Shown here one piece after another: positions 3,075 to 12,635 of a DNA stretch of 55,259 nucleotides; position 1 is the first letter of the stretch; each line of letters opens with the position of its first letter. The notes below the pieces were generated by a model. The model did not search any database, was not told where the DNA came from, and saw only the letters and a program-made list of their open reading frames with translations. A program made the translations under genes and the position numbers. The DNA is from Oscillibacter sp. (GTDB taxonomy: Bacteria; Bacillota; Clostridia; Oscillospirales; Oscillospiraceae). The DNA lies in contig JAAWGR010000011.1 in assembly GCA_022795445.1 (NCBI GenBank), positions 1 through 55,259 of the forward strand. Reading direction: 5' to 3'.

Positions 3075-3704
3075 ATGACGATATCGGATCAGAAAATCTA
3101 CCCCCGCACGGGGGATCGGGAAACCGTCTACTTGAAGAGCGTTGTGACAGGTCCCTACGTAGTTGCCGGCGATTTTACGATGTACAATGATTTCGTGAAA
3201 GACCCGCGGGATTTTCAGCGGAACAATGTGCTGTACCACTACCCGGTCAACCAGGACAAGCTGGTGATCGGGAAGTTCTGCTCCATCGCCTGCGGCGCGA
3301 AATTTCTGTTCAACAGCGCCAACCACACTCAGACGTCCCTCTCCACGTATCCTTTCCCCATCTTTTTTGAGGAGTGGAACCTGGATATCAAGGACATCGC
3401 GTCAGCCTGGGACAACAAGGGGGATATTGTCATCGGCAGCGACGTGTGGATCGGCTATGAAGCGGTTATCCTGGCCGGCGTAACCATTGGGGACGGCGCC
3501 ATCATCGGCACACGAGCAGTCGTAACCAAGGATGTACCGCCTTACACGGTTGCCGGAGGCGTCCCGGCGCGGCCAATCCGCAGGCGGTTTCCCGATGAAA
3601 CGGTTGCCGCGCTGCTGGATTTGAAATGGTGGGATTGGCCTGTCGAAAAAATTGCGCAGAATCTTCCTGCCATCCAGTCAGGGAACGTGGAACAGCTGCA
3701 ATAA
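3075..3704 (+). CDS. Vat-like streptogramin A / xenobiotic O-acetyltransferase
   Basis: A 209-residue left-handed beta-helix acetyltransferase. Vat enzymes use acetyl-CoA to acetylate virginiamycin M-type (streptogramin A) antibiotics. Family hallmarks are [19 protein letters not shown], the catalytic-His segment NSANH (His84), STYPF, the hexapeptide repeats [26 protein letters not shown] and [14 protein letters not shown], and the C-terminal LDLKWWDWP typical of Vat proteins. Length matches Vat(A)-Vat(E). The ATG at 3075 follows AGGAGA. Two mini-frames precede it, suggesting drug-responsive control. Its 3' end overlaps the convergent membrane-protein gene by 27 bases. Other xenobiotic acetyltransferases share the fold, so the substrate is not proven, but the trp-rich tail and loop pattern favour Vat. 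Confidence 0.85.
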
Positions 3705-4301
3705 CGTCCGGACGGGAACCGCTTGCCGCATCCCCTCCAAATCCCCGGTGACGCGGAGAAAATACAGCGAACAAACCGTGTCTGCGGTAAACAGCAGCAG
3801 GAACGCGTAAGACCCCCATGCCGGAATCGCCTCCGCAAACACCGCCGCCAGAGGCTGTACAAAGTGTACGGCTCCCGCCGTCAATACGCCCCACGCCAGG
3901 GAAAACGGTAAACACACCCGCCCCGCGACGTTTCCAGGCACCTGGGAGTAGTCCCAGAACCAGACGCCGAGCAAAACTTCGCCCACCCAGTGATAGGCAT
4001 ATTCCACGGCTGTCGCAGCCAGCCCGCCCCAAACAGCCAGCGGGAACCATCCCATCGGCGGCAAGGCCAGCACCGCCAGCATCCCAAACCCATAGACTGG
4101 GCACAGCGGCAGCAGCAGGAAGCACCGCCGCTTCTGAGACTCCGCCCGGCTGAGGAGGGCAAATGCCCTTTCCAGCCCCCAGCCCAGGAAACTGTAGAAC
4201 CAAAAATACCAAAGCCAATTTACCAAGCCAATCATCCCTCCCGTCACAGTCTCTCCCAGAAAAAGAGGGCTATCCGCCTCTTGCGCTGGCAGATGTTTCA
4301 T
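3678..4301 (-). CDS. Putative ABC-transporter type IV membrane protein (CmpB/PF06541-like)
   Basis: An approximately 207-residue membrane protein with five or so hydrophobic segments. The [10 protein letters not shown] stretch near the start, [10 protein letters not shown] and [21 protein letters not shown] match the family annotated as putative ABC-transporter type IV (CmpB); its function is unknown. The gene is convergent with the vat-like gene and overlaps its last 27 bases. The start is uncertain. The first ATG (4301) lacks a ribosome site. A second ATG (4235) has GGGAGGG directly against it, and a TTG a few codons later would have better spacing. The homologous region begins near LVNWLWYFW, so the first 20 or so residues may not be translated. 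Confidence 0.72.
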
Positions 4302-4322: not shown

Positions 4323-4418
4323 GATATAGTTGAAGCTCTTGAACATCCACAAATTGCGGATGTTCAGCCAGCGGGGCGAAGACCCGCTGGACGGGCTTTG
4401 CCCGTGTGTGTTGACTAT
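4323..4418. repeat. Multi-hairpin dispersed repeat, copy 1
   Basis: 85 bases (4323-4407) match 12389-12473 with five substitutions and no gaps by hand alignment. The unit holds three consecutive stem-loops: GAACATCC(A)C/GCGGATGTTC (one mismatch here), CCAGCGGG/CCCGCTGG with a 7-base loop, and ACGGGC/GCCCGT with a TTT loop. They are bracketed by ATAGTTGA at the left and a partly matching TTGACTAT at the right. It lies between divergent genes, upstream of the broken glycosylase. It could be a MITE-like or REP-like element or a structured RNA. Confidence 0.85.
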
Positions 4419-4489
4419 AAAAACAGCAGTATCCTATGCTCCCTTTTAGAATTTATATATACAGTCAAAAAACAGGAGGTAATACGGGT

Positions 4490-5059
4490 ATGGATACATG
4501 GGAAAGCCTGCGTACGGAATGCCTGGCCTGCCAGGGCTGTTCCCTGGCGGAAACACGGACGAACGTCGTGTTTGGCGACGGCGCGGAGAATGCGGAGATC
4601 CTTTTCATCGGGGAAGGCCCCGGCCAGCATGAGGACGAGCAGGGCAAGCCCTTTGTCGGCCGTGCAGGCAAGCTGCTGGACGATATGCTGGAAATGGTGG
4701 GCTTGGACCGGACAAAGGTGTACATCGCCAATATTGTCAAGTGCCGTCCGCCCGAAAACCGCGACCCGCTGAACGTGGAACAGGATGCGTGCATCGGCTG
4801 GCTGCGCCGCCAGACGGCGCTGCTCTAGCCAAAAATCATCGTCTGCCTGGGCCGCATTGCGGCGAAGGCCATTATCAAAAAGGATTACCGCATTACGGCG
4901 GAACATGGCCAGTGGTTTGAACGCAACGGCGTACAGATGACAGCAATCTACCATCCGGCGGCTCTGCTGCGGGACGTCAGCAAGCGGCCGGACACCTTTG
5001 AGGATATGAAAGCGATCCTGGCTATGGCCAAAGAAATCTGCGATCATACGGAATTTTAA
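4490..5059 (+). pseudogene. Uracil-DNA glycosylase, family 4, interrupted by in-frame TAG
   Basis: Family 4 (Fe-S) uracil-DNA glycosylases remove uracil from DNA to start base-excision repair. The frame starts at an ATG with AGGAGGT nine bases upstream and has Cys14 and Cys17 of the cluster site, motif A (GEGPGQHEDEQGKPFVGRAG) and NIVKCRPPENRDP. A TAG at 4826-4828 ends the protein at 112 residues. The same frame then continues open for 76 codons to TAA at 5057, with KIIVCLGRIAAKAII and the catalytic motif B HPAALLR. Total length (189 residues plus the stop) is normal for the family. The truncated product would lack motif B. The intact downstream frame points to a recent single-base change, suppression or a sequence error rather than old decay. 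Confidence 0.9.
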
Positions 5060-5065
5060 CAAGGT

Positions 5066-5108
5066 AAGCTCCGCATCCGGAAGAAACGGAATGCGGAGCT
5101 TGTTTTTT
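5066..5108 (+). terminator. Rho-independent terminator after the glycosylase gene
   Basis: An 11-bp stem AAGCTCCGCAT/ATGCGGAGCTT (5066-5076 with 5091-5101) with a loop that can extend the pairing, followed by G and six T. It separates the glycosylase gene from bioY. Confidence 0.88.
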
Positions 5109-5130
5109 CCTTAGGGTTCGTTTCGCACGA

Positions 5131-5184
5131 TTGTCAACCGCTTTTAAAAAATAGGTTGACAACTAGAAAGGATTGCGGTATGAT
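5131..5184 (+). promoter_or_regulatory. BirA-type biotin operator overlapping the bioY promoter
   Basis: A perfect inverted repeat TTGTCAACC (5131-5139) - 14 bases - GGTTGACAA (5154-5162) matches the known BirA operator pattern. A sigma-A promoter is nested in it: TTGACA at 5156-5161, a 17-base spacer to TATGAT at 5179-5184. BirA bound to biotinyl-AMP would cover the -35 box and shut off bioY when biotin is plentiful. Confidence 0.9.
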
Positions 5185-5217
5185 TTCCCAGAAAACAAAA
5201 AGGAGGATTGATGCATT

Positions 5218-5796
5218 ATGACTTCTACACCTTCCAAATCTGCTGCTGCATCCCGTCTGCGGACCTTAGACCTAACATATGTCGCACTATTTACCGTCTT
5301 GATGGCGGTGGGTGCCTGGATCTCAATTCCTGTGCCCGCGCCGTTGGTGGAGTTTACCATGCAGAGCTTCGCCATCTTCGCAGCCCTGACGGTCTTAGGC
5401 GGACGGCGGGGGACTTACGCCGTGGCGGCCTATCTGCTGCTGGGCGCAGTGGGCGCGCCGGTGTTTGCCGGATTCCACGGCGGGCTGGGCGTCTTGCTGG
5501 GGACAACCGGCGGCTACATCGTCGGCTTTTTTGCCCAGGCCCTGCTGTACTGGGCCATGACCGCCAAGCTGGGGGACTCCCTGCCGGTCAAAGCCTTGGC
5601 GTGCGCCGCGGGACAGTTTGTGTGCTGTTATGGCATCGGCACTGTCTGGTTCATCACCGCCTACACCCAGGCAAACGGCCCCATCAGCGTCCTGACCGCC
5701 CTGGGCTACTGCGTATTCCCCTTTATCGTGCCCGACCTGCTGAAGCTGGCGCTGGCACTGGCAATCTCCCGCCGGGTAAGCGGATATTTGAAATAA
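5218..5796 (+). CDS. bioY: BioY, biotin-binding S component of an ECF transporter
   Basis: A 192-residue integral membrane protein that binds biotin and, with ECF A, A' and T subunits encoded elsewhere, imports it. About six hydrophobic helices are visible. Family motifs include TYVALFTVLMAVGAWISIP, the TMQSFAIFAALTVLGGRRGTYAV region, AYLLLGAVGAPVFAGF with GGLGVLLGTTGGYI, and PFIVPDLLKLALA near the end. The ATG at 5218 follows AAGGAGG by about 11 bases; an ATG at 5211 is out of frame. It stands alone behind a BirA-type operator, and no biotin synthesis gene is adjacent, which fits a biotin scavenger. Confidence 0.95.
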   Translation: MTSTPSKSAAASRLRTLDLTYVALFTVLMAVGAWISIPVPAPLVEFTMQSFAIFAALTVLGGRRGTYAVAAYLLLGAVGAPVFAGFHGGLGVLLGTTGGYIVGFFAQALLYWAMTAKLGDSLPVKALACAAGQFVCCYGIGTVWFITAYTQANGPISVLTALGYCVFPFIVPDLLKLALALAISRRVSGYLK

Positions 5797-5803
5797 AAAG
5801 AAA

Positions 5804-6679
5804 TTAGATCGTTTCCCGCAGCAGGCGGAGGAAGAGTTCCATCGCCGGGTTTTTCCACCGCCCCTTTCTCCAAGCGCATAGCGTCGGAAGCCGCAGCCCT
5901 GAAATCGGCGCGTCCAGCTCCACAAGCGTCCCGGCGGCAAGTTCCTCCCTGGCCACGAAGCGGGGCAGGAAGGTAAACCCCAGGTTGGACATGACACAGC
6001 GCTTGATTGTCTCAATGCTCCACAATTCCAAAGTGACATCCAGAACAATGTTCCGTTCCCGCAGGTACGCCTCCAAGCGGCGGCGGAAGATGCTGTCCGG
6101 CTCATCGGTGACAAGGGAAGCAGGTTTCACTTGGTTTGGCGTCGTAAAATCGGGACATGCGAAGTTCGGGGCGGCCAGGAGGATGATGTCGAACATCCCC
6201 AGGGATTCCACCTCCAGCGCCTCCCGGCTCCAATCCATATCGTAGCCTACGCCAAGATCGCAGTCTCCGGTGCGCACATTCTCCGGGATTTGCAGACAGT
6301 TGCGGCTCCGGATGATCAGCCGCGCCTGGGGCGCCAGCGCCCGGAAGGAGCGGATGACTGGCTGCATCTGGTAGCACAGCAGCGTTTCCGCCATGTCCAC
6401 CCGGAGGGTACCTGCGGGGATGTGGTTGGACACGTTGATTTCCAGCAGGCGGTCAGCCGCCGCCAGCAGTTCCCGGGCCTGTACCAACGCCTGGCGGCCT
6501 ACTTCCGTCAAGACCATCCGCCGTCCCACCCGTTCAAACAGCGGCACGCCGAGGGATTCCTCCAGCTGCTGAATCTGAGCGGTGATGGTAGACTGCGTGT
6601 AACCCAAGAATTCTGCCGCACGCTGATAACTGCCCCGGTCAACCACAGCCTGGAATGCCCGCAGGTTTTTCAGCTCCAT
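5804..6679 (-). CDS. LysR-family transcriptional regulator
   Basis: A 291-residue regulator. The N-terminal winged helix (about 1-60) has the standard LysR pattern: LRAFQAVVDRGSYQRAAE, then GYTQSTITAQIQQLEESLG and PLFERVGRRMVLTEVG. A periplasmic-binding-protein-like effector domain follows (about 90-290), with the DCDLGVGYD strand. It is divergent from a LysE-family exporter gene with about 110 bases between them, the usual layout for a LysR protein controlling its neighbour. The effector is unknown; an amino acid is a reasonable guess from the partner. Confidence 0.93.
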   Translation of the reverse strand: MELKNLRAFQAVVDRGSYQRAAEFLGYTQSTITAQIQQLEESLGVPLFERVGRRMVLTEVGRQALVQARELLAAADRLLEINVSNHIPAGTLRVDMAETLLCYQMQPVIRSFRALAPQARLIIRSRNCLQIPENVRTGDCDLGVGYDMDWSREALEVESLGMFDIILLAAPNFACPDFTTPNQVKPASLVTDEPDSIFRRRLEAYLRERNIVLDVTLELWSIETIKRCVMSNLGFTFLPRFVAREELAAGTLVELDAPISGLRLPTLCAWRKGRWKNPAMELFLRLLRETI

Positions 6680-6792
6680 TTCTAACGCCCCATTTCATCG
6701 ATTTTTTCGATATTATATATCAATAACTTTCGCTTTTCAAATGAATTATTTTCTGTTATGATAGGCCCATCTTGATAAAGGATGTGCTTCCC
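6680..6792. promoter_or_regulatory. Divergent LysR/LysE promoter region
   Basis: AT-rich spacer between the divergent genes. It contains the inverted repeat ATCGA-TTTTT-TCGAT (6697-6711) and a -10-like TATGAT at 6757-6762 directed toward the exporter. The repeat is a candidate LysR site (T-N11-A geometry); this is inferred from position. Confidence 0.45.
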
Positions 6793-7386
6793 ATGCCGCT
6801 CTCGCTCCTGCCCTCGTTCCTGCTCTACTGCTATGTCGGGGCCATCACCCCTGGTCCTGCGAACCTCTGCTCCCTCTCCACGGCCCTCCGGTATGGCAGA
6901 GGCCTGGCCCTGCGCCAGTGGCGGGGACTGTTCGTGGGATTTTCCGTCATCTCCATGGCGGCGGTAGCAGTCACGTTCCTCCTGGGCACCCTTCTGAATC
7001 CGTATGTTGGTTACCTCTCCTGGCTTGGCGCGGCGTACCTCCTCTGGATGGCGTGGCATACGTTCCGCTCCTCCAGCGGCCCTGAGGGACAGGAGGCCGC
7101 GCAGCCCAGCTTCCTCACAGGCTTGCTGGTACAGCTTACCAATGTAAAAATCATGGTGTTCTGCCTTATGGCGTTGGCGTCCTATGTGCTGCCTTATAAC
7201 CGTTCCTTCTGGGCGCTTCTGGCGGTGGGACTGTTCCTACCCTTTACTGGGCCGGTTGCCAACTTGGCATGGCTGTTTGCCGGAGCGGCGCTGCAAAAGT
7301 TGTTTGCAAACCATCGCCGGGCAGTAGACGCTGTGATGGCTGCGGCGCTTGCATTGTGTGCTGTCAGCCTGGTATGGCCCCATTGA
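6793..7386 (+). CDS. LysE/RhtB-family amino-acid exporter
   Basis: A protein of about 197 residues with five or six membrane helices. Family features are the early GAITPGPANLCSLSTALRYG segment (the conserved PGP with an N-x-x motif), the following G-R-x-x-G glycine-rich region, GLLVQLTNVKIMVFCLMAL in the middle, and a hydrophobic C-terminal helix. Such proteins expel amino acids such as lysine, threonine or homoserine lactone. I place the start at the ATG at 6793 with AAAGGA upstream rather than at a TTG at 6772. It is paired with the divergent LysR gene and followed by a strong terminator. Confidence 0.88.
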   Translation: MPLSLLPSFLLYCYVGAITPGPANLCSLSTALRYGRGLALRQWRGLFVGFSVISMAAVAVTFLLGTLLNPYVGYLSWLGAAYLLWMAWHTFRSSSGPEGQEAAQPSFLTGLLVQLTNVKIMVFCLMALASYVLPYNRSFWALLAVGLFLPFTGPVANLAWLFAGAALQKLFANHRRAVDAVMAAALALCAVSLVWPH

Positions 7387-7406
7387 TCGGAAACATCCAT
7401 AAATAC

Positions 7407-7439
7407 AACATAGGGGCGGCTGTCAGCCGCCCCTATGTT
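7407..7439. repeat. 33-base near-perfect palindrome
   Basis: Sixteen-base perfect arms, AACATAGGGGCGGCTG and its complement, are separated by one T. It sits directly before a conventional terminator between convergent genes. It may be a REP-like extragenic palindrome or an mRNA 3'-end stabiliser. Confidence 0.8.
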
Positions 7440-7440
7440 C

Positions 7441-7467
7441 ACCCGTCCTGTCCAGGACGGGTTTTTT
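7441..7467 (+). terminator. Rho-independent terminator after the LysE-type exporter
   Basis: A ten-base stem ACCCGTCCTG/CAGGACGGGT with a two-base loop runs into six T (7462-7467). It closes the exporter transcript. Confidence 0.85.
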
Positions 7468-7513
7468 GCGCCTCAAACAGCCAGCCTTTACAGGGTCCGA
7501 TTCGCCATCGTTT

Positions 7514-7567
7514 CTACGGCTCTCCTGTGTACAGTTTTACAGCCTGTGCAGCTGTTTTGTAAGCCAT
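7514..7567 (-). CDS. Possible 17-residue small protein downstream of cinA
   Basis: ATG at 7567 with CAGGAG nine bases upstream opens a 17-codon frame (MAYKTAAQAVKLYTGEP) ending in TAG. It is 79 bases beyond the cinA stop, on the same strand. The ribosome site is good, but a frame this short can arise by chance and no homology is recognised. The remaining sequence between 7468 and 7645 shows no other feature. Confidence 0.25.
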   Translation of the reverse strand: MAYKTAAQAVKLYTGEP

Positions 7568-7645
7568 CTTAACACGCTCCTGCCAGAAAATGCAAGAAAA
7601 GCCTTCTAAGTTTGTAGGTTGAAGCTGAAATTTCCAATCCTGTGC

Positions 7646-8908
7646 TCAGACCGTTTCCACTGGGAGGCCTGTTAACCAGCGCCGTACCACATCAAAGGCG
7701 TGGTTTGCCGCCAGCCCCTGGATACGGTCGCGCCGCCGCCGCCCGAAATCCACCTTCCGGCAGAAGGTCCCCTCGGGAGTCGCAAGGCCGATGTAGACGA
7801 TGCCTACTGGCACCCCCCGTTCATCCGGGTCTGGTCCCGCCACGCCGGTGATGGATACGCCAATATCTGCGCCGGTAATCCGGCACACGCCTTCTGCCAT
7901 AGCGCGGGCAGTTTCTTCGGACACCGCTCCGTATGTATCCAGGGTCTCCTGCGGCACGCCCAGTACGGCCCCTTTCACAGAGGTCCAGTAGCTCACCACA
8001 CCGCCCCGGTAGACGGCAGAGGCTCCTGGGATGGCCGTCATGCGTTCCGCGACCAGGCCGCCGGTACAGCTCTCGGCGGTGGCAAGGGTCAAGCCTTTCA
8101 GGAGCAGCAGGCTGTGGCAGCACTCTGCCAGCCCGGAGACATCGACGCCGTAAACGACATCCCCCAGAGTTTCGCAAACCAGATCCCATACAGGGTTCAG
8201 CATCGCTTGGGCTTCTTCCTCGGTTGCGGCTTTGGCGGTAGCCCGGAGGCGGACTTCACCGGGCTTGGCGTAGGTGGCAAGGGTGGGATTTGTCATATGG
8301 GCCATTTTTTCGTGGAGCAGCTCGTCGATGGAGCTCTCCCCCATGCCGAAGGTCATGATATCCCGGGAGACGATCACCTCCTTGGACAGTTTGCGCAGGT
8401 AAGGTTCTCCGCACCGGCGGAGCATGGTGGTCATTTCATGGGGCGGGCCGGGGAACATGAGGACGTGGACGCCCTCGCACTCGAAGGCGCAGCCTGGGGC
8501 GGTACCGACAGGGTTGTCGAACACGGTACAGCCTTCAGGGAGTTCGGCCTGCTGGGTGTTGTTCTCCGGCATCGGGACATGGAGAGCGGATTCATAAAAG
8601 GTCCGGATGTCGTCCAGAATGTCCGGATGGAGCGTCAGTTTTTGGTGGAAGGTTTCGCAGATTGTCTGCTTGGTGAGGTCGTCATAAGTGGGGCCAAGGC
8701 CGCCGGTTGTGATAATGATGTCTGCCCGGCGGCGGGCGATGTCCAGGGCTTCCCGGAGGCGGTCGGGATTGTCGCCCACAACGGTGTGCCAGAAGACGTT
8801 GATCCCCAGTGTGGAGAGGCTTTCAGAGAGCACTTGGGCGTTGGTATTGGCGATGTTGCCGAGGAGCAGTTCCGTCCCTACGGCGATGATTTCAGCAGTA
8901 TGTGACAT
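7646..8908 (-). CDS. cinA: CinA, competence/damage-inducible protein with PncC domain
   Basis: A 420-residue two-domain protein. The N-terminal molybdopterin-binding-like (COG1058) domain, about 1-170, has AEIIAVGTELLLG, TTGGLGPTYDDLT and NPVGTAPGC. The C-terminal PncC-type nicotinamide-nucleotide amidohydrolase domain, about 255-415, has ATAESCTGGLVAERMT and SITGVAGPDPDE. CinA takes part in pyridine-nucleotide recycling (ADP-ribose and NMN) and in many Firmicutes is associated with recA and competence. I use the ATG at 8908 (AAAGGAGG upstream); a longer frame from 8971 lacks support. It lies downstream of thiI and a small unknown gene on the same strand. Confidence 0.95.
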   Translation of the reverse strand: MSHTAEIIAVGTELLLGNIANTNAQVLSESLSTLGINVFWHTVVGDNPDRLREALDIARRRADIIITTGGLGPTYDDLTKQTICETFHQKLTLHPDILDDIRTFYESALHVPMPENNTQQAELPEGCTVFDNPVGTAPGCAFECEGVHVLMFPGPPHEMTTMLRRCGEPYLRKLSKEVIVSRDIMTFGMGESSIDELLHEKMAHMTNPTLATYAKPGEVRLRATAKAATEEEAQAMLNPVWDLVCETLGDVVYGVDVSGLAECCHSLLLLKGLTLATAESCTGGLVAERMTAIPGASAVYRGGVVSYWTSVKGAVLGVPQETLDTYGAVSEETARAMAEGVCRITGADIGVSITGVAGPDPDERGVPVGIVYIGLATPEGTFCRKVDFGRRRRDRIQGLAANHAFDVVRRWLTGLPVETV

Positions 8909-8954
8909 AGAGAATCCTCCTTTTCCTATCCATTTTTCTGTGGACAATGCAGCT

Positions 8955-9170
8955 TCAAGACTTGCTTGCAAGCCTTTTTGAAATCTTTATAAGAACATGG
9001 AATTTTTTCTTGTTTTTCTTAAAGCAGGTCTTTATCCTTCTGAGACTCTCGTCATAGTCCTCTCTGGCGTCAGATTTCCTCTGACTGATTCGATCAATTT
9101 TATCCGCCATGCGCAGAATCGCAGCCTCCAGGGCAATCTTCTTTTTCGTTACGGTTTCACCCAAACCCAC
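8955..9170 (-). CDS. Small basic hypothetical protein overlapping the thiI end
   Basis: A 71-residue, Lys/Arg-rich, probably all-helical protein. It starts at a GTG at 9170 inside the last codons of thiI, in a different frame. A GGAGGG lies six bases upstream of the GTG, and the 22-base overlap fits translational coupling. It ends 47 bases before the cinA start. I do not recognise the family. The good ribosome site and operon position support it; the unusual charge and lack of homology leave doubt. Confidence 0.45.
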   Translation of the reverse strand: MGLGETVTKKKIALEAAILRMADKIDRISQRKSDAREDYDESLRRIKTCFKKNKKKFHVLIKISKRLASKS

Positions 9171-10327
9171 TGTTCGCCCTCCAGGGACCGTGCAAGCAAA
9201 GCTTCCACATCCAAGGCGGCCTCTGCCGCCCGCACGTCTTCGACACGGGGCCGGGTTGCCGGGTGGCGGGGGGTAAATACGGTGCAGCAGTCCTCATAGG
9301 GCAGGATGGAGGTGTCATAAGTCCCGATCCGCTGGGCGGTATGGATGATCTCCACCTTGTCTATGCCGATCAAGGGCCGCAGGACCGGCAGGGTGGTAAC
9401 GTCCTCCGTAACGCACAGCGCAGCCATCGTCTGGCTGGCGACCTGTCCCAGGGATTCACCGGTGATCAGCGCTTTTGCGCCCGCCCGCTTGGCGATGGCT
9501 TCGGAAAGGCGCATCATGAAGCGGCGCATGATTAGAGTAAAATATTCTTCCGGGCAGTTTTTGCGGATTTCCTCCTGGATTTCCGTAAAGGGTACGATGT
9601 GTACCCGTAGGCGGCCGCACCAGGCGGTCAGGAGGCGGGCCAGTTCCATCACCTTATCCTGGGCCTGTTGGGAGGTGTAGGGCGGGGAGACAAAATGGAC
9701 CATTTCCAGCTCCACGCCCCGCCGGGCCATCATCCAAGAGGAGACTGGGCTGTCCAGTCCGCCTGACAGCAGGCTGACGGCATGGCCGCCCATCCCCACC
9801 GGCAAACCTCCTGCGCCGGGGATGGAAGGGGCGTGGACATAGGCGTATTTCTCCCGGATTTCCACGAACACCGTCAAGTCCGGGCGGTGGACGTCTACCG
9901 CGACGTTGGGGAACGCCTCCGCCAGCTCGCCGCCTACGGCCTGGGAAATCTGGATGGAGTTCATGGGGAAATTTTTATCGGCCCGCTTGCTCTCCACTTT
10001 GAAGCTCTTAGCGGCGGCAAAGGCGTCTGCCAGATATGTTTTTGCCGTCTCGACGACGGCCTCCACGGTCTTTTCGCAGGGCACCGCCCGGGCCACCGAT
10101 ACCACGCCGAACACCTGCCCGCAGGCTGTCCAGGCGGCGTCCATATCGCAGGATTCGCTGACCGGCTCCACGTAGATCGTACTCTGCCGGAGATAGATTT
10201 GGAAGCTGCCCAGCCCCTTCAGGCGGCGGCGGACGTTGGAAGTCAAGCGGTCCTCAAAGGCGCGGCGGTTTTGACCCTTCAGCACCACCTCCCCCAGTTT
10301 CAGCAAAAGGGTTTCGTTGTTTTTCAT
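9149..10327 (-). CDS. thiI: ThiI, tRNA 4-thiouridine sulfurtransferase
   Basis: A 392-residue enzyme that adenylates and thiolates U8 of tRNA (s4U) and can supply sulfur for thiamine synthesis. It has an N-terminal ferredoxin-like region and THUMP RNA-binding domain (about 1-170), then the PP-loop ATPase with SLLSGGLDSPVSSWMMARRG and the later ALITGESLGQVASQT motif. There is no C-terminal rhodanese domain, as in Bacillus-type ThiI, so a separate cysteine desulfurase would deliver sulfur. The ATG at 10327 has GGAGGG five bases upstream; a far longer open frame reaching 10675 runs antisense to nothing useful and overlaps the XRE gene, so I reject it. Confidence 0.95.
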   Translation of the reverse strand: MKNNETLLLKLGEVVLKGQNRRAFEDRLTSNVRRRLKGLGSFQIYLRQSTIYVEPVSESCDMDAAWTACGQVFGVVSVARAVPCEKTVEAVVETAKTYLADAFAAAKSFKVESKRADKNFPMNSIQISQAVGGELAEAFPNVAVDVHRPDLTVFVEIREKYAYVHAPSIPGAGGLPVGMGGHAVSLLSGGLDSPVSSWMMARRGVELEMVHFVSPPYTSQQAQDKVMELARLLTAWCGRLRVHIVPFTEIQEEIRKNCPEEYFTLIMRRFMMRLSEAIAKRAGAKALITGESLGQVASQTMAALCVTEDVTTLPVLRPLIGIDKVEIIHTAQRIGTYDTSILPYEDCCTVFTPRHPATRPRVEDVRAAEAALDVEALLARSLEGEQWVWVKP

Positions 10328-10424
10328 AAAGTCCCTCCAAAAAATAGTTGTTACAGGCATGATACCACATTCCGGTTCCGGGGGAAAGGAAAAAATATGC
10401 CGGAATTGCGCAAAGCGAACCTCT

Positions 10425-10754
10425 TCAAAGGTCGCCCCGCAGGAGGAACAGCTGCAAGACCTTCTCTGCCAAGCGCAGTTCCCGGGGGGAGCAGCGGTCC
10501 AACAGGGCTTGGAGGCTCCCCTGATCCACGGACTCCTCTCCTTCACCGAACAAGATATATTCCATCGAGAGGCGGGAGGTTTTGGAAACTTTGATGAGGG
10601 TGTCAATGGACATCTGAGAGGTCCCCACCTCGATCTGTCCGTAATAGCCTGCGCCGATATCTGCCAGTTCCGCAAATTGTTCCCGGGTGAGGTTGAGACG
10701 GTTCCGCTGCTTGCGGAGCCGCTGGCCGGCGGCGGTGCGCTCCTGTTTTGTCAT
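10425..10754 (-). CDS. XRE-family helix-turn-helix regulator
   Basis: A 109-residue protein with a lambda-Cro/XRE helix-turn-helix in residues about 12-66 (QRLRKQRNRLNLTREQFAEL, then GAGYYGQIEVGTSQMSIDTL) and a short helical C-terminus that may mediate dimerisation. The ATG at 10754 lies downstream of AAAGGAG; an earlier ATG at 10778 lacks a site. It is divergent from the recombinase-derived double-winged-helix gene at 11088. Between them is a perfect inverted repeat that could be its operator. It lies 97 bases upstream of thiI on the same strand and might share the transcript. Confidence 0.88.
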   Translation of the reverse strand: MTKQERTAAGQRLRKQRNRLNLTREQFAELADIGAGYYGQIEVGTSQMSIDTLIKVSKTSRLSMEYILFGEGEESVDQGSLQALLDRCSPRELRLAEKVLQLFLLRGDL

Positions 10755-10922
10755 GGATGATTCTGCTCCTTTCAACATGTTTTGTCACAGTCTATCCTTG
10801 GATCGAGAGATACAAAATATGCGAAAAGATATTGATTTTTGTTATTTTTTAGCGTATCCCGCAAGGTATAAAACCTTGAATCCCTTGCGCTGCAATAATT
10901 ACACGGAATTCGCAAAATTCAA

Positions 10923-10950
10923 GTTTTGTTATCAATAATTGTAACAAAAC
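10923..10950. promoter_or_regulatory. Inverted-repeat operator candidate
   Basis: GTTTTGTTA (10923-10931) and its exact complement TAACAAAAC (10942-10950) are separated by ten bases. Similar half-sites recur nearest the XRE gene (GTTTTGTCAC around 10777) and near 10835 (TTTTTGTTAT). The repetition across one divergent intergenic region points to a dimeric regulator, most simply the adjacent XRE protein. Confidence 0.55.
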
Positions 10951-11011
10951 GATTTGGAAAAATCCTGCAAATTCCGCCCAGACCGCTTGAAAACGCGAGG
11001 TGTCCAGGCGC

Positions 11012-11039
11012 TTGTTCGAGTCACGTGATTTGCTATACA
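11012..11039 (+). promoter_or_regulatory. Likely promoter of the recombinase-like gene
   Basis: TTGTTC at 11012-11017, a 16-base spacer, and TATACA at 11034-11039 give a near-consensus sigma-A promoter about 45 bases before the start codon, downstream of the inverted repeat. Confidence 0.5.
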
Positions 11040-11087
11040 AGTGTAACATGCAGGCGCGCCTTGTGCGCGACGGATGGAGGGTCCGTT

Positions 11088-12362
11088 ATGCAGGAATACG
11101 TCGTCAACCGCCCTGACGAGGGGGCTATGAACCGCATTTTAAACCAAAATCCCAGCACCGCAACCAAAACAATTTTACGTTTGGCGTGGCAGGCCGGGCT
11201 GCTGCGGGACGAGATTCAGCGTCTCACATGGGAGCAGGTGGATTTTTTAGACGGTAAAATTGTCCTGCCGGACCGGAGCGTTCCGCTGCCGGACGAGCTG
11301 TCCCAGTGGCTTTGGGCCCTGCGGGACGGCCGGGACCGGCGTTTGGAAACCGTTGTGCTGTCGGACCGGGACCAGAAACCGCTGACGCCCCAGTCCATCT
11401 CCCGCCTGGCGCGGACGGCCCTGGATAAAGAGGGTCAGGAAAAAGTCCGCCTCATTGACCTGCGGCATGATTTTGTTCTGCGGCAGCTGGAAGAGCATGA
11501 TTGGCAGTATGTTTCCCGGATCACTGGCGTCGAGGCGGCGGGACTGAACGTCCATTTTGCGGAGCACTTGGAAACAAAGCAGATTTCAACCCGTATTCAC
11601 CGGGAAGCGCCTATGCAGGTCGATGAGTTTGCACTGTGGAAGCTGCTGCGGGCAGAGGGCGTTTCACCCGCGGCGGTTACGCTGTGGCTGACGTGGCAGC
11701 TGGGGCTGCAATTGGAAGAGATTGTCGCCCTGCGCTGGGAGCAGGTGGATTTCCGGCAGGAAATGATTTTCCTGGAACGGGACCAGCTGGCGATGACGGC
11801 AGGGATCTCGGCGGTGCTGCGGGAGCTGCGGACGCAGGAACCGGAGGCGGAGTATGTGCTCACGTCGCCGCGGAGCCGGCAGCCCTATGACCGGACACGG
11901 CTGAGCAAGCTGGTGCGGGCGGCCCTGGTGAAGGCGGGGCTGGACGATTTGTCGCTGCGGGATTTGCGGATGGATTGCGGCTTCCGTACCGGAGGCGAGG
12001 GGAAGATTATGGCTTTTGTGCAGAAGAACCACGCGATTACGCGGAACGAGGTTATGGAACTGCTGCAAGTCTCCCGCACAACGGCGTATAACCGGCTCAA
12101 ACAGATGGTAAAGCGCGGAAAGCTTACCCAGGTAGGGGCGCGGTATTATTTGCCCGAGACCGTTGTGCCGCCGGAGCGGCAAGGTGAGGTGATCCTGGGG
12201 TATTTGGAGCGGGAAGGGTTTGCTTACCGCCAGGATATTGCCCGGATATTAGGGATTGACGCTTCCCAGTGCCGTCCGATTTTACAGAGGATGATGACCA
12301 TGGGGCAGATCATGCAGCAGAAGCAGAAGTACATATTGCCCCCGCTGACGAAGGAGGGGTAA
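11088..12362 (+). CDS. Degenerate tandem tyrosine-recombinase-like protein with two winged helices
   Basis: A 424-residue protein of unknown role. Residues about 25-165 and 190-305 each resemble the catalytic core of tyrosine recombinases and share the motif WEQVDF (48-53 and 217-222), so they look like an internal duplication. In the first half, Arg40 keeps box-I Arg and IDLRH (123-127) matches HDLRH with the first His changed to Ile. The Tyr position appears to be Phe157 (VHFAEH). In the second half Arg is Gln208 and no Tyr nucleophile is visible. Two winged-helix domains follow (about 310-358 and 365-418; SRTTAYNRLKQMVKRGKL in the first). It is probably a DNA-binding protein that has lost strand-exchange activity. 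The ATG has GGAGGG upstream; a longer frame from 10926 is not supported. Confidence 0.75.
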   Translation: MQEYVVNRPDEGAMNRILNQNPSTATKTILRLAWQAGLLRDEIQRLTWEQVDFLDGKIVLPDRSVPLPDELSQWLWALRDGRDRRLETVVLSDRDQKPLTPQSISRLARTALDKEGQEKVRLIDLRHDFVLRQLEEHDWQYVSRITGVEAAGLNVHFAEHLETKQISTRIHREAPMQVDEFALWKLLRAEGVSPAAVTLWLTWQLGLQLEEIVALRWEQVDFRQEMIFLERDQLAMTAGISAVLRELRTQEPEAEYVLTSPRSRQPYDRTRLSKLVRAALVKAGLDDLSLRDLRMDCGFRTGGEGKIMAFVQKNHAITRNEVMELLQVSRTTAYNRLKQMVKRGKLTQVGARYYLPETVVPPERQGEVILGYLEREGFAYRQDIARILGIDASQCRPILQRMMTMGQIMQQKQKYILPPLTKEG

Positions 12363-12388
12363 GGACTTAAAAAACACAGGTTTTGCAC

Positions 12389-12484
12389 GATATAGTTGAA
12401 GCACTTGAACATCCGCAAATTGCGGATGTTCAACCAGCGGGACAAAGACCCGCTGGACGGGCTTTGCCCGTGTTCCTCAACTAT
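12389..12484. repeat. Multi-hairpin dispersed repeat, copy 2
   Basis: Second copy of the 4323 repeat, and the better-paired one. Stem 1 is GAACATCCGC/GCGGATGTTC (ten perfect pairs), stem 2 CCAGCGGG/CCCGCTGG, stem 3 ACGGGC/GCCCGT. The outer arms ATAGTTGA (12392-12399) and TCAACTAT (12477-12484) pair perfectly over eight bases, closing the whole unit into a multi-branched structure. It begins 27 bases after the preceding stop codon. Confidence 0.88.
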
Positions 12485-12514
12485 GAAGTCATACACACAA
12501 CCGCTTACACGGTC

Positions 12515-12541
12515 CCTGGCGGCAGTTATACTGCCGCCAGG
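12515..12541 (+). other. Strong stem-loop in the 12.5 kb intergenic region
   Basis: CCTGGCGGCAGT and ACTGCCGCCAGG form twelve perfect pairs around a three-base loop. There is no T-run directly after it. It is one of a series of hairpins between the recombinase-like gene and arcA. Confidence 0.7.
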
Positions 12542-12544
12542 TTA

Positions 12545-12567
12545 AAAAGAATCATTCTGATTCTTTT
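12545..12567 (+). terminator. Possible terminator hairpin
   Basis: AAAAGAATCA-TTC-TGATTCTTTT is a perfect ten-base stem ending in four T. It could end transcripts from the recombinase-like gene, though the stem is AT-rich and the T-run is part of it. Confidence 0.4.
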
Positions 12568-12601
12568 CAAGTGTGTCGCCTATATTCTGGAATGACACTG
12601 C

Positions 12602-12635
12602 GCAGCCCTTCTGCAAAGGAGGGCTGCCTTTTTTT
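12602..12635 (+). terminator. Rho-independent terminator upstream of arcA
   Basis: GCAGCCCT (12602-12609) pairs with AGGGCTGC (12620-12627), followed by C and seven T. It isolates the arc genes from everything upstream. Confidence 0.85.

Follow-up and report, generated by a model that had tools for sequence, protein, structure and literature searches.

The analysed stretch of Oscillibacter sp. DNA (contig JAAWGR010000011.1, 55,259 nucleotides, hereafter the window) contains a pair of near-identical, hairpin-rich repeats, and the question they raise is whether such units are mobile DNA or structured RNA. An original prediction, made from the letters alone, had proposed a miniature inverted-repeat transposable element (MITE) or REP-like unit mobilised in trans, or else a structured RNA. 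Among the checks that it named were a search of this genome and its relatives, compensatory base changes among copies, and target duplications at empty loci; each of these gave a positive result. Dispersed copies, inverted ends, duplication of TA on insertion and an IS630-like end together indicate that the element is very probably a non-autonomous MITE of IS630/Tc1-mariner type, presumably moved in trans as the prediction had suggested. Positions below are those of the window, unless labelled G (genome), L (locus) or C.

The repeats, at 4323-4407 and 12389-12486, are 94% identical, with five differences in 85 bases. As described before, stems 2 and 3 are the same in both copies, the loop of stem 2 reads GCGAAGA in copy 1 and ACAAAGA in copy 2, and the closing arms of copy 2 are ATAGTTGA/TCAACTAT. 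Stem 1 of copy 1 carries two changes, not the single one first reported: one breaks a pair, and the other converts U-A to U-G. The proposed unit length of about 95 bp is correct for copy 1, whereas copy 2 at full length is 100 bases longer than had been recognised. Both copies are real, but the assembly also holds a third (C9, 84%) and a decayed fourth (C33, 72%).

A dispersed double-cloverleaf element with TA insertion sites

The full unit is approximately 180-195 bp long and has the layout TATAGTC-cloverleaf-CTATGAAGTC-cloverleaf-GACTATA, with two inverted three-hairpin cloverleaves and six hairpins in all. G016 and G033 also matched in a set of 60 genomes (own included), and their copies extend beyond the end first reported. 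R1, a covariance model built on three copies of the left cloverleaf, recognises right halves too, on the opposite strand (L113 and L114 are examples), so the two halves follow a common plan. Of 114 copies, 48 have CTATGAAGTC at the centre and most others have a centre starting CTATGAAG; CTATGAAGTC differs by two bases from CTATATAGTC, the junction to be expected had one element gone into the TA at the end of another. The full unit is probably a dimer that arose by such an insertion of one single-cloverleaf element into another. The CTATGAAG motif (12481-12488 in the window) is conserved although its GAA is unpaired. Copy 1 consists of one cloverleaf followed by the right end. Its final 14 bases, GTGTGTTGACTATA, are also those of the full-length copies L077, L078 and L079, so that copy 1 looks like the product of a deletion that later removed internal sequence at a GTGT repeat. 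The junction of the C9 copy is nearly the same.

When 86 same-genus genomes were searched with R1, matches at E<=0.01 were obtained in 19. Those in G005 (L044) and G017 (L045) were weak, lacked TATAG ends and were discarded, leaving 17 genomes; the family is thus dispersed among bacteria of Oscillibacter/Dysosmobacter type and not confined to the window. One G084 copy that was inspected (L038, G084:C2:66048-66139) likewise lacks TATAG ends; it seemingly stands just before a ribosome-binding-like site and is possibly a co-opted copy. R1 matches numbered 37 in G098, 36 in G102, 30 in G073, 23 in G064, 20 in G033 and six in the window genome, which are not exact copy numbers because no more than 49 candidates per genome were scored and some copies were matched on both strands. 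Across the wider family, with 14 candidates scored per genome, matches at E<=1e-8 were found in 3 of 300 genomes (own included) and 2 of 106 genera. In named genomes, at least 120 stretches fitted a pattern describing the outermost right hairpin; not every one was confirmed as the element. Among the 80 matches listed were Oscillibacter sp. 1-3, Anaerotruncus sp. G3(2012), one 'Bacilli' metagenome-assembled genome and many such genomes of Oscillibacter, Dysosmobacter, Clostridia and Oscillospiraceae. A phage or plasmid origin was rejected, the only match being one of 21 bases at E 0.9.

The inverted ends are about 21 bases long and close to TATAGTCARCRCANTTGAAAA in most subfamilies. A 22-base end pattern, allowing up to three mismatches, gave 41+48 matches in G098, and the reversed-pattern control gave 0+0. 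Copies have sharp ends and unrelated flanks. When the joined flanks of 14 sites were compared with the 86 genomes, G033 was found to lack two inserts of G102, L105 (empty site TATGA-TA-GGAC) and L099 (empty site TTCCAA-TA-GCTG). At both of these clean empty sites a TA stands where the element has TATAG...CTATA, as expected for a TA target duplication. The flanks show a preference for A at -1 (51/71), Y at -3 (58/71) and A at +1 (42/71). The TGA in front of the element was considered as a stop codon and rejected, as only 1 of 14 was flush with the end of an open reading frame (ORF).

TA is the target of the IS630 family, and matches to its transposase domain, DDE_3 (PF13358), were found in 12 of the 86 genomes, 11 of them over the cut-off. 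They occur in five of the 17 carriers (G033, G102, G064, G099 and G097) against seven of the 69 other genomes, in a set in which many assemblies are incomplete. G033 has 29 such matches, many of them fragments. At L180 (G030) there is an 878-bp IS630-type unit with the ends TATAGTAAAACCAGTTGAAAA and TATAGTTACCACAGTTGAAAAG and GATGGA in front; its DDE_3 match is over the Pfam cut-off and its reading frame is broken up. The second end of this unit has 20 of 22 bases in common with the G098 right end, TATAGTCAGCACAGTTGAAAAG. At L186 (G071), TATAGTCAGCCAACTTGAAAA lies beside IS630-type pieces. Facing end pairs 230-4000 bp apart were found four times in 329 loci: the IS630-type unit of L180, a single cloverleaf adjacent to a distinct double element at L089, and pairs at L254 and L095 with no ORF of 90 codons inside. 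The features that define a MITE are thus all present: the element is short, non-coding and dispersed, has terminal inverted repeats, shows a target duplication relative to empty sites, and has an end matched by that of a transposase-bearing element of the same genus.

Several observations weigh against this assignment. The TA result was obtained at just 2 of the 14 sites tried; L081 agrees with G101 in length and not in letters, and L104, L109 and 13 further L081 comparisons are too diverged to judge. A looser end pair about 920 bp apart around the DDE_3 match of L181 (G003) and one loose end at L204 count for little, because they contain one or two mismatches and an estimated 0.5 chance matches per locus are expected. 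No autonomous copy with these ends and cloverleaves was found in G098 or G064, where no ends faced each other at insertion-sequence distance, although several were unpaired; an autonomous copy with the same ends was on this ground rejected there. R1 finds no cloverleaf in 24 of 30 DDE_3 loci, so that the shared part is the ends. DDE_3 is absent from 12 of the 17 carriers, including the window assembly (93% complete), and G032 has 14 DDE_3 matches and no element.

The IS630-type reading would imply that a DDE transposase, supplied by an insertion sequence with the same class of ends, excises the element and pastes it into TA, with YGA as the preferred context before the element. As the window assembly has no DDE_3 match, its copies are probably relics; the source of transposase would have disappeared from this genome, leaving the four copies found. 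Mobilisation as a single strand by a Y1 transposase, the element being a REP/BIME-like or IS200/IS605-derived palindrome, is very improbable. Hairpin-rich, dispersed units do resemble REP elements, but the 'REP-like' part of the prediction fits less well. REP/BIME palindromes lack DDE-type inverted ends and do not duplicate TA, whereas the present element has both features; judged from these ends and the 2-bp duplication, it suits the IS630 type better.

Conservation of the fold

Folded as RNA, the 100-nt units gave z scores of -6.8 and -9.2 relative to shuffled sequences, the two strands being comparable, and the full 194-nt copy 2 gave -11.8 as RNA and -13.6 as DNA. Compensatory changes were examined in separate alignments of the two halves. 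The left-half alignment (75 copies, 70 distinct) has 92.3% of its cells paired and two-sided changes in 28 of 39 pairs; 359 cells are two-sided, compared with 115.9 +- 7.9 in shuffles and 25-66 in slid versions. The right half (63 rows, 58 distinct) is 91.7% paired and has two-sided changes in 30 of 41 pairs, with 376 two-sided cells against 110.3 +- 8.3 in shuffles and 25-53 in slid versions. None of 500 shuffles reached the observed counts, which are to be read in the knowledge that both alignments were fitted to a model and so lean towards structure, that relatedness inflates cell counts and that shuffles ignore kinship. RNAalifold, using its own predicted structure for the left-half alignment, gave 29 pairs, 19 of them with two-sided changes.

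The alignment input came from 74 of 95 sources, and the E cut-off removed more, a selection that leans towards intact folds. Left out were 10 further G098 copies, the repeated loci L028 and L047, the chance matches L044 and L045, and the mostly weak or decayed L006, L038, L042, L043, L086, L095 and L116. The right-half rows are 63 matches from 76 sources and include one left half by mistake (L036:1501-1592).

To see what keeps the fold, we turned to recent copies. Among these, 23 from G098 (median identity to the consensus 97.9%) carried 48 changes at 150 stem sites and 57 at 42 loop sites, or 0.0139 and 0.0590 per site and copy; 29 of the 150 stem and 17 of the 42 loop sites were variable. 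This set was found via the ends and hairpin 2 and is less biased, and variants common to several copies raise its loop count. Similar results were obtained with the five subfamilies that form clusters of at least five (55 of 114 copies). Private changes affected 63 of 6232 stem and 53 of 1763 loop site-copies (odds 0.33, p 1e-8), and shared variants numbered 24 for 554 stem and 30 for 163 loop sites (odds 0.20, p 5e-8). Because these copies were located by a conserved hairpin, their stem variation is somewhat reduced. The stems of recent copies vary 3-4 times less than the loops.

Selection of the cloverleaf as a one-strand RNA, in a cis-regulatory or small RNA that is multicopy by chance, would account for the very strong covariation in both halves, and promoter-like hexamers at the element edges and the position of L038 point the same way. 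Such selection should favour G-U over A-C mismatches. Private stem changes instead produced 15 G-U and 22 A-C mismatches (p 0.32; small numbers), and distinct events in G098 11 and 9, so there is no sign of selection on one RNA strand. Both strands fold comparably, and the inverted ends, unrelated sites and TA duplication also argue against a primary RNA function. An Rfam scan of the window gave no match at gathering score and a focused scan sub-threshold matches only, on which grounds a known RNA family was rejected; a tRNA search of the window found none. We therefore consider it improbable that the element is primarily a structured RNA: the fold predicted for it is strongly kept, but with no strand preference in recent copies an RNA is not needed to explain it.

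Two-sided changes were found in 18 of 4026 pair cells, where 2.4 would be expected if the sides were independent, and 17 of the 18 are Watson-Crick; L299 and L307 show runs of three and four adjacent changed pairs. The excess fits selection on a strand-independent fold; it also fits template switching that corrects one arm against the other, or subfamily differences that remain inside clusters. Template switching, through misaligned replication between the arms of a quasi-palindrome, would rewrite one arm from the other, so that paired changes would appear together and hairpins would be kept without selection. Both the excess and the runs are in keeping with this, but counting cells is not counting events, three changes each occur in two copies, and the runs may reflect differences between subfamilies that share a cluster. 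Moreover, 150 one-sided changes remain, and template switching alone leaves the persistence of the whole branched layout unexplained. As the sole cause it is a possibility to which we give some weight while doubting it.

The hairpins persist in those lineages that have spread. The fold is most likely important whichever strand is considered, either by aiding movement or by lessening harm beside genes, and arm-to-arm correction during replication perhaps helps to keep the hairpins. A more specific proposal, which we think rather unlikely, is that the non-coding transposon body is selected, or corrects itself by mutation, to keep a double cloverleaf on either strand, and that folded single-stranded or cruciform DNA takes part in transposition or copying. 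If true, IS630-type cut-and-paste would gain a step that depends on structure.

The window copies and their surroundings

Copy 1 lies between a leftward gene for a CmpB-type membrane protein (3678-4301) and a short downstream ORF (4436-4828; 130 aa) that stops at TAG, at a locus that the original prediction calls a broken glycosylase. One promoter-like pair was found at copy 1, against 0.4 expected from shuffles, and insertion of copy 1 may, on the evidence of hexamer matches, have created a rightward hybrid promoter. Copy 2 follows an integrase-like gene (10926-12362) and precedes an arginine deiminase gene; the 478-aa product of the former has two phage-integrase stretches and winged-helix matches in an unusual layout. 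A serine recombinase (Resolvase and zinc ribbon) is encoded at 218-1555, near the contig edge. Outside the window, the right flank of L107 (query 1650-1764), and also L103, contain a separate sequence starting at about AACCTGTATTCA that occurs in several places in many genomes of the genus and is apparently another dispersed repeat family.

Table 1. Element copies and adjoining signals in the window
Feature	Position	Strand	Remarks
Copy 1, single-cloverleaf form, 95 bp	4325..4419	+	TATAGTTGAAGC...GTTGACTATA; the TA at each end is presumed to be the duplicated target
Copy 1 outer stem, 5' arm	4326..4338	+	pairs with 4406-4418; R1 model positions
Copy 1 hairpin 1	4339..4367	+	
Copy 1 hairpin 2	4368..4390	+	CCAGCGGG/CCCGCTGG
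Copy 1 hairpin 3	4391..4405	+	
Promoter-like pair TTGACT-18-TATGCT	4411..4440	+	first hexamer is the element right end, second in flank; consensus match only
Copy 2, full-length double cloverleaf, 194 bp	12391..12584	+	TATAGTTGA...GTGTCGCCTATA
Copy 2 left cloverleaf	12391..12484	+	outer stem 12392-12404 with 12472-12484
Copy 2 left-cloverleaf hairpins	12405-12433, 12434-12456, 12457-12471	+	
Copy 2 centre CTATGAAGTC	12481..12490	+	differs by 2 bases from CTATATAGTC, the junction that two elements joined end to end should give
Copy 2 right cloverleaf, inverted relative to left	12485..12584	-	R2 model match L001:1597-1696:-, 70.8 bits
Copy 2 right-cloverleaf parts	closing arms 12493-12498 with 12571-12576; hairpins 12500-12513, 12515-12541, 12545-12567		
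Terminator-like hairpin and T run	12602..12627	+	just outside copy 2, not part of the element; consensus match only

Relation to known elements

Ends of the form TATAGT-N8-[CG]TTGAAAA (L180, L186) link the element to IS630 insertion sequences, from which it differs in having no transposase gene and in its cloverleaves, which R1 did not find at 24 of 30 DDE_3 loci. Terminal TATA is noted, in what the Thiomargarita study says of such repeats, as common in MITEs and present in the IS630 family (PMC4853749). Stable folds have been described for bacterial MITEs (PMC2229807). According to the same source, the Correia/NEMIS element of Neisseria is a small MITE with inverted ends, TA termini and a target duplication, comes in size classes of about 107 and 155 bp, and forms stable stem-loops in transcripts (PMC2229807). 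The present element resembles it in being small and in its inverted ends, TA termini, target duplication, two size classes and stable stem-loops. Compared by these descriptions, it differs in having two inverted three-hairpin cloverleaves, lengths of about 95 and 180-195 bp, and stems that covary between species; its host group is also different.

RUP of Streptococcus pneumoniae is, in the accounts drawn on here, a 107-bp MITE with IS630-Spn1-like ends and TA targets for which movement in trans has been proposed (PMC2229807, PMC3049150). The present element is likewise a small MITE with IS630-like ends and TA targets that is presumed to move in trans, but those accounts describe no double-cloverleaf plan, and the likely partner of our element is known from relatives alone. 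For the CIR elements of Caulobacter and Brucella, RNA models and a structure kept between species are reported in the section concerned (PMC2229807). Conservation of structure between species is common to both; unlike the element, CIR is listed there without inverted ends and has two long arms and a linker, not cloverleaves (PMC2229807).

Among the papers listed in searches of the open-licence literature on Oscillospiraceae MITEs, cloverleaf bacterial MITEs and Oscillibacter structured RNAs, none described the family; those listed for cloverleaf MITEs dealt with giant viruses and yeast mitochondria. The kind of mobile element is already known, and it is the double-cloverleaf shape and the strictness of its conservation that are unusual. 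The element provides a recognisable repeat family for annotating and comparing genomes of the Oscillibacter and Dysosmobacter type. With many recent copies, many diverged subfamilies and two-sided stem changes far above chance, it also makes the question of what keeps MITE folds directly testable.

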